Shown here: piece by piece, positions 10,428 through 48,369 of the stretch | How positions within the stretch are numbered: position 1 is the first letter of the stretch | Layout of the letters: each line of letters starts with the position of its first letter | Assembly (NCBI RefSeq): GCF_028290435.1 | Contig: NZ_JAQGJV010000051.1 | Location: 1 to 64,000, forward strand | Origin: Devosia sp. | GTDB lineage: Bacteria; Pseudomonadota; Alphaproteobacteria; Rhizobiales; Devosiaceae | Length of the DNA stretch: 64,000 nucleotides | Reading direction: 5' to 3' | Position numbers and translations under genes: made by a program | The notes under the pieces: model-generated | Told to the model about the DNA's origin: nothing | Database searches by the model: none | The model's input: only the letters and a program-made list of their open reading frames with translations

Positions 10428-10546
10428 TCACCCCCTCCCTGCCTCCCCCATCAAGGGGGAGGTGTCTCTCCACACTAGTGACTCTATGGAGTTCAACACG
10501 CCAGACGGCACCTCCCCCATGATGGGGGAGGATGGGTGGGGGTGCG
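10428..10546. repeat. Palindromic intergenic repeat, family A (full element)
   Basis: Opposed arms (CACCCCCTCCCTGCCTCCCCC followed by ATCAAGGGGGAGGTGTCTC, then CACCTCCCCCATGATGGGGGAGG with a GGGTGGGGGTG end) enclose a central TCTCCACAC..GTTCAACAC spacer. The same element is at 48,239-48,369, and half elements are at 30,302, 45,011 and 45,858. Together with the rpoZ terminator it fills the 307-bp gap between rsh and rpoZ. Confidence 0.85.
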
Positions 10547-10560
10547 CGGAGCAACCGGCC

Positions 10561-11865: not shown

Positions 11866-11962
11866 TCCATCCACCCACGGACTTGATCCGCGGGTCTCTC
11901 GCAACACAATGCGAATGGAGAAAGGCCCGCGGATCAAGTCCGCGGGAAGGGCCGGTGGTGGG
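11866..11962. repeat. Palindromic intergenic repeat, family C
   Basis: Opposed copies of GACTTGATCCGCGGG(TC) and (GGCCC)GCGGATCAAGTCCGCGGGAA surround about 35 bp. Part of the element recurs at 15,771-15,845, and a fragment is at 45,921-45,949. It lies between the NYN gene and smpB; no gene is seen in this gap. Confidence 0.85.
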
Positions 11963-12036: not shown

Positions 12037-12102
12037 CTACTCCCGCGCACCATTCTTCATGATGCGGGATTTGTCGCGATTCCAGTCGCGGTCGCGTTCG
12101 GT
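12037..12102 (-). pseudogene. smpB: Detached C-terminal tail of SmpB behind an in-frame stop
   Basis: Directly after the smpB TAA the same frame continues for 21 sense codons to a TAG (12039-12037). It encodes TERDRDWNRDKSRIMKNGARE, which is the expected SmpB C-terminal tail (family pattern KR-x-TE-x-x-RDWxRxKxRIMK). The tail is therefore present and undecayed but separated by one stop codon. It would be expressed only by readthrough, or if the stop is a sequence error. Confidence 0.85.
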
Positions 12103-12537
12103 TTAGCGCTTGTCGTAGTTCTTCTTGCCCTTGCCGATGCCGATCAGGACCTTGGCGCGGCCCTGGTCGTTGAAGAACAGCTTGAGCGGCACGATGGTGT
12201 TGCCGGCACGCGAAACTTCCTCGCCCAGCTGGGCGAGTTGCTTCTTGGAAACAAGGAGTTTGCGCGGACGCCTTTCCTCGTGGTTGAAGCGATTGGCCTG
12301 CAGATATTCCGGGATATGGGCGTTGATCAGCCACAACTCGCCCTTTTCGGGCGAGGCATAGGACTCGGTGATCTGCGCCTTGCCCAGGCGCAGGGATTTG
12401 ACCTCGGTGCCGGTCAGCACGAGACCGGCTTCCATGGTCTCGCCGATGGCATAATCGTAGCGCGAGCGGCGGTTTTCAGCCACGAGACCGTGGCTGATGA
12501 CGCCGTTCTTGGCTTTGTCGTTCTTGGGACCGGCCAT
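12103..12537 (-). CDS. smpB: SsrA-binding protein SmpB, truncated by an in-frame TAA
   Basis: The 144-residue product has the SmpB core: [44 protein letters not shown] and RPRKLL. SmpB binds tmRNA and delivers it to stalled ribosomes. The frame stops with GKKNYDKR at 12105-12103, just where family members go on for about 20 basic residues. That tail fits in the empty mRNA channel and is known to be required for trans-translation but not for tmRNA binding. A single C-to-T or G-to-T change of a CAA or GAA codon would explain the TAA. It is 7 bp downstream of dapA, so the two form an operon. Confidence 0.93.
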
Positions 12538-15770: not shown

Positions 15771-15845
15771 CCGACCTTCCCGCGGGCCACGGGCCGCTTG
15801 TGCCATGCTGATAGTGGCCCGCGGATCAAGTCCGCGGGAAGGACA
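15771..15845. repeat. Palindromic intergenic repeat, family C
   Basis: The right arm GGCCCGCGGATCAAGTCCGCGGGAAGG matches the element at 11,866-11,962, and the left arm begins CCGACCTTCCCGCGGG. It occupies the middle of the gap between slt and the hydrolase-like gene; nothing else is recognised there. Confidence 0.8.
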
Positions 15846-30301: not shown

Positions 30302-30338
30302 ACACCCCCACCCCGCCTCCCCCGTCAAGGGGGAGGAG
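30302..30338. repeat. Half element of palindromic repeat family A
   Basis: ACACCCCCACCCCGCCTCCC then CCGTCAAGGGGGAGGAGTC matches one arm of the full element at 10,428 and 48,239. It lies between the GH20 gene end and the small frame upstream. Confidence 0.75.
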
Positions 30339-45842: not shown

Positions 45843-45857
45843 CCCCTAGTCCGGTGC

Positions 45858-45949
45858 GTCACCCCCTCCTACCTCCCCCATCAAGGGGGAGGTTTCTCTC
45901 CACTCGTTAAACTCGAGCCAGTCCACCCACCGGCCTTCCCGCGGGAAGA
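45858..45949. repeat. Composite repeat: family A half element joined to a family C fragment
   Basis: GTCACCCCCTCCTACCTCCC then CCATCAAGGGGGAGGTTTCTCTCCAC is a family A arm. It is followed after 15 bp by CCACCCACCGGCCTTCCCGCGGGAAG, the end of family C. It lies between the convergent TSUP and oxidoreductase genes. Confidence 0.72.
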
Positions 45950-48238: not shown

Positions 48239-48369
48239 GGTCACCCCCTCCCAGCCTCCCCCATCAAGGGGGAGGTGTCTGCCGGTGGGTTGAACTGGAT
48301 CGAGTCCAAAGAGTGGAGAGACACCTCCCCCTTGATGGGGGAGGCTGGGAGGGGGTGGGCAGGCGGTGA
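48239..48369. repeat. Palindromic intergenic repeat, family A (longest, near-perfect element)
   Basis: The left arm (48239-48279) and right arm (48319-48369) are inverted copies of GGTCACCCCCTCCCAGCCTC CCCC..AAGGGGGAGGTGTCT, with about 40 bp between. Each arm itself contains a smaller CCTCCCCC/GGGGGAGG hairpin. Confidence 0.88.

Follow-up and report, generated by a model that had tools for sequence, protein, structure and literature searches.

An in-frame stop codon in the smpB gene of one draft Devosia genome, with an undecayed tail sequence behind it

Introduction

Damaged smpB genes have been described before. 'Ends of the line for tmRNA-SmpB' (2014, PMC4131195) reports, in the portion of its text available to us, pseudogenised, frameshifted and truncated smpB genes; the damage there occurs in single strains, mostly as frameshifts or in reduced symbiont genomes, and sequencing error is often possible. 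The same portion describes the SmpB of Carsonella, an extremely reduced endosymbiont, as a body from which the tail sequence is gone. The tail has also been shortened in the laboratory. According to the accessible sections of PMC4151336, accommodation and tagging depend on it, mutants altered in the tail retain their binding to tmRNA and ribosomes, and in E. coli the activation of EF-Tu is little or not affected by losing the last 20 SmpB residues. In E. coli, too, an excerpt of PMC8363625 gives the last five residues as dispensable, with tagging severely reduced once two more are removed.

Here we analyse an smpB gene from Devosia that lies within a 64,000-nucleotide stretch of one contig (the window). 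Like the genes of PMC4131195, as far as its available text describes them, it is damaged in a single strain and a sequencing error is possible; unlike most of them, it carries one in-frame stop, exactly at the boundary between body and tail, in a genome of 4.6 Mb. It shares with Carsonella SmpB, as portrayed in that text, a body without a tail, and differs in that intact tail codons still follow the stop. The E. coli mutants in the consulted parts of PMC4151336 and PMC8363625 likewise keep the body with the tail helix wholly or partly removed, although they were made in the laboratory whereas the Devosia form is known from sequence alone. The Devosia gene is one more case of damaged smpB, in which the break falls with unusual precision between body and tail. 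Literature searches for premature stops or nonsense mutations in smpB and for Devosia SmpB returned, by titles and the first lines of abstracts, nothing on the Devosia stop. PMC3598801 was set aside as a precedent for a nonsense mutation in smpB; in its accessible text, the nonsense mutation is in agrA.

Results

A stop codon at the base of the SmpB tail

Translation of positions 12037–12537 on the minus strand gives a 144-residue SmpB, a TAA stop, then TERDRDWNRDKSRIMKNGARE and a TAG (Table 1). The codons behind the TAA match the tail of SmpB from the nearest genome in our set (G003) at 20 of 21 residues, and are therefore not random sequence.

Table 1. Features of the smpB locus, with positions counted from the first base of the window
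Feature	Position	Strand	Remarks
smpB reading frame as it stands	12103–12537	minus	TAA after 144 codons; intact SmpB body and GKKNYDKR motif
In-frame TAA at codon 145	12103–12105	minus	Stop absent in the other 72 matching same-genus genomes
21 intact tail codons, TERDRDWNRDKSRIMKNGARE	12040–12102	minus	From translation and comparison with G003
TAG terminator behind the tail	12037–12039	minus	Same place as the end of smpB in G003 (TAA there)

The 144-residue part is readily recognised as SmpB, scoring 180.7 bits (cut-off 130) and 161.3 bits (cut-off 119.1) against the NCBIfam SmpB equivalog models. Its matches end at position 137 of 156 in NF003843 and at position 127 of 144 in TIGR00086, 19 and 17 positions short, respectively; the full SmpB of G003 reaches 155 of 156 and 144 of 144. 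The GKK…DKR motif at the base of the tail is retained in the translated frame. Missing from it is the C-terminal helical tail with its conserved basic residues and the counterpart of tryptophan W147, the codons for which lie behind the TAA. In an alignment, query residues 17–164 pair with residues 12–159 of a solved 160-residue SmpB chain, 6q98_5, which we take to be that of E. coli, and the last SmpB residue before the stop corresponds to E. coli Arg139. The original prediction, that an in-frame stop cuts off the conserved tail of SmpB while leaving its codons intact, is thus upheld by the translation, the match to the G003 tail and the unreached profile ends. A second, intact smpB copy was considered and rejected, as a genome-wide search found a single smpB match.

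The stop is private to one genome

The host genome comprises 4,578,634 bases in 99 contigs and is 99.99% complete with 3.18% contamination. The closest named loci are from Devosia and the tmRNA is of alphaproteobacterial type, on which grounds we assign the window to Devosia. G003 aligns to the contig at mostly 88–96% DNA identity, with one 744-base piece at 84%. In G003, all 144 SmpB residues are identical to those of the host, codon 145 encodes Glu and the tail is complete.

We matched smpB in 73 of the 75 genomes from the genus, the two others being 74% and 78% complete, and among the 73 only the host genome has a stop before the tail. The wider order yielded smpB matches in 388 of 397 genomes. 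Ten other matches were flagged for a stop, three in the genus (G429, G434 and G021) and seven in the order among the matches listed, and in each of the ten the tail extends to query position 163; the genus three are read that far with no stop, and the stop at position 164 in two of the ten is therefore a natural end. A stop common to relatives, or programmed in them, was rejected on the G003 sequence and the genus comparison. Two further genus matches are irregular. The start of smpB in G450 is clipped by a contig edge, and in G447 the gene (G447:C1:3167100-3167900) lies in two frames with a switch near codon 25 and the tail present; as that genome consists of 2 contigs and is 84% complete, its split smpB is probably a sequencing error.

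Named loci point the same way. We kept 80 of 563 confirmed loci, a set from which same-species records were possibly excluded; 77 of the 80 have 19–22 residues after the motif, and the other three show no stop, their alignments covering the tail as far as position 161 or further. The comparison with close relatives that the original prediction had called for therefore places the stop in one genome, with the tail kept in the relatives examined.

The last residues of the tail vary within the genus. The SmpB ending MKNGAR(E/D), at 12040–12060 in the window, is common to the host and G003, and other Devosia loci, among those listed, end in MKEGGRG or LKEGGRG, unlike these two.

The tail shows constraint behind the stop

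Between the host and G003, the 144-residue core has 22 synonymous and no amino-acid changes. The tail codons that follow the stop, with 50 nonsynonymous sites, have five synonymous changes and one amino-acid change, a Glu/Asp difference at the last residue. Taking the host branch as half of the host–G003 divergence, with a gene-wide dS of 0.28, a tail left unconstrained for the whole branch would be expected to show about 7.0 amino-acid changes (P = 0.007 for at most one); for three quarters and half of the branch, P is 0.033 and 0.136, respectively. By these counts the tail appears to have been constrained for much of the host branch. The stop is therefore probably younger than the split from G003, with an age that is loosely bounded and compatible with zero, as it would be for a wrong base. 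At this locus a private stop is followed by constrained sequence, the pattern sought in a pseudogene made by recent nonsense mutation. The earlier reading that the tail is undecayed and that the change is either recent or a wrong base call is supported.

Soundness of the assembly

We compared 199 gene-like open reading frames (68,634 codons) with G003 on three contigs: C94 whole, the first 120 kb of C33 and the first 140 kb of C72, part of which is covered by the counterpart. At the internal stop in smpB, the share of changes that fall at third codon positions is 0.90. Under the same rule, four further internal stops were flagged in the host genome, with shares of 0.65–0.70, and eight in G003 in the reverse comparison, with shares of 0.65–0.86; these others are probably over-extended starts or wrong-frame reading frames. 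The rule is noisy and neither count nor share alone sets smpB apart: because other stops were flagged in both the host and G003, the flag count and share prove little. The smpB stop stands out in that it lies in a recognised gene family and ahead of a conserved tail.

None of the frameshift candidates examined in the compared contigs (three in the host, four in reverse) lies inside a gene, their frame changes preceding likely gene starts; one host candidate, of 398 residues on C33, was missed by the frameshift rule. The compared stretches hold no N bases. A generally error-ridden assembly, which we considered, was not seen across the 199 reading frames.

tmRNA and ArfB are intact

tmRNA and ArfB were both recovered in searches that the original prediction had proposed for ssrA and ArfB. 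The genome has an intact tmRNA gene, as trans-translation requires, matching the alpha_tmRNA model at 277.5 bits over its full length; the general Rfam tmRNA model gave sub-threshold hits only, so that the alpha model was needed. The encoded tag, ANDNHKAPVALAA, is the same in G003.

Three genes with an RF-1 domain are present in the genome. One is an intact ArfB of 143 residues (NF006718, 176.8 bits, cut-off 100) with GGQ and a basic C terminus; the other two frames, of 354 and 364 residues, are of release-factor size. An arfB match occurs in 73 of 75 same-genus genomes. According to the consulted part of PMC11633108, arfA is present in none of 2,376 alphaproteobacterial genomes, and ArfB is essential in Caulobacter without trans-translation. 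By analogy, ArfB could cover a loss of trans-translation here, and because of the Caulobacter result it is the likely survival route.

In two of these 73 genomes, G427 (contig C2) and G025 (contig C1), each 90–91% complete, arfB is in two pieces, by either sequencing error or loss.

Origin and consequence of the stop

We think it probable, with modest confidence, that the stop is a recent nonsense allele, private to one Devosia genome, that ends SmpB after DKR and has largely cost the cell trans-translation. The shortened protein would still fold and bind tmRNA, and may still trigger EF-Tu delivery; with no helix to occupy the vacant mRNA channel, accommodation and tagging would fail, trans-translation would be largely lost, stalled ribosomes would be released by ArfB and the cell would survive at a fitness cost. 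These steps follow from an end equivalent to Arg139 when set beside the published truncations, and the mutants in the accessible portions of PMC4151336 and PMC8363625 agree with the earlier claim that a tail-less SmpB binds tmRNA but fails in trans-translation. A loss of the main rescue route would hold if the stop is real, and the allele is known from one draft consensus in 99 contigs. Such a loss should be costly, and an undecayed tail is equally explained by a single wrong base in that consensus, in an organism with an ordinary full-length SmpB. We regard this second account as a serious possibility, though short of probable. It draws on the privacy of the change in a gene that was matched in 73 of the 75 genomes of the genus, on the draft state of the assembly, on the resemblance to a sequencing error of the frame change near codon 25 in G447, and on the frameshifted smpB genes already published, all but one of which are possibly sequencing errors in the available text of PMC4131195. 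The clean appearance of the assembly, with no N and with frameshift candidates that precede gene starts, weighs against it, yet leaves room for a single base.

The remaining accounts accept the stop and keep SmpB useful. Readthrough of the TAA, whether regulated or constitutive, to make both a 144-residue form and one of 165 residues or more would explain the intact codons behind it. Same-genus relatives, however, have no stop there, whereas a readthrough gene would be expected to share its stop, with a coding extension, among relatives; programmed readthrough and a changed code are therefore without support. TAA is generally the least leaky of the stop codons, and it ends 57 of 201 gene-like reading frames in the host (17 of 59, 17 of 63 and 23 of 79 per contig), where it is an ordinary terminator; two RF-1-domain frames of release-factor size are present as well. 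A suppressor tRNA was rejected, as none of 44 tRNA matches (ARAGORN) carries an anticodon that reads TAA, TAG or TGA in a list that is probably incomplete, Ile-GAT and Ala-TGC being unseen, possibly owing to the absence of rRNA operons from the assembly. The regulated readthrough offered in the original prediction is not borne out by this evidence, and we consider readthrough of either kind very improbable. A tail-less SmpB might instead work well enough, either because DKR and the tmRNA contacts suffice or because another role is kept, such as protecting tmRNA while ArfB rescues; taken jointly, these variants are distinctly unlikely. The unchanged amino acids of the core would fit them but are equally expected from a young stop. 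The near-normal EF-Tu activation of the 20-residue truncation (PMC4151336) and the weak function that Carsonella SmpB may keep (PMC4131195), both from partial texts, speak for such activity; the same partial text of PMC4151336, with that of PMC8363625, has tail truncations abolishing or severely reducing tagging, and the tail is kept in all 80 named loci and in each of the other 72 genomes of the genus with a match. It is likewise unlikely that a free-living alphaproteobacterium has shed SmpB tagging, with the body keeping tmRNA bound or protected and rescue left to ArfB alone, which would make this a natural separation-of-function allele.

If the stop is real, the strain offers a natural test of whether a cell is fit when a tail-less SmpB is accompanied by tmRNA and ArfB, and of the extent to which ArfB can stand in for trans-translation in a full-sized alphaproteobacterial genome. 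If the base is wrong, the case is one more warning that smpB losses seen in single genomes need reads before they are believed.

Repeats elsewhere in the window

The interval separating the smpB end from the plus-strand reading frame that precedes it holds an inverted repeat (11874–11946) with 27-nt arms, 89% complementary and 19 nt apart, which is possibly a dispersed palindromic element or a terminator. Its 16-base core, CGGACTTGATCCGCGG, recurs at 15819–15834 and occurs three times in the window against 0.12 expected. A separate dispersed repeat, at 10429–10549, 30303–30336, 45857–45893 and 48242–48358, is related to an element on contig C33, with six matches in the window; the C33 query that holds this element has 28 secondary matches in G003.
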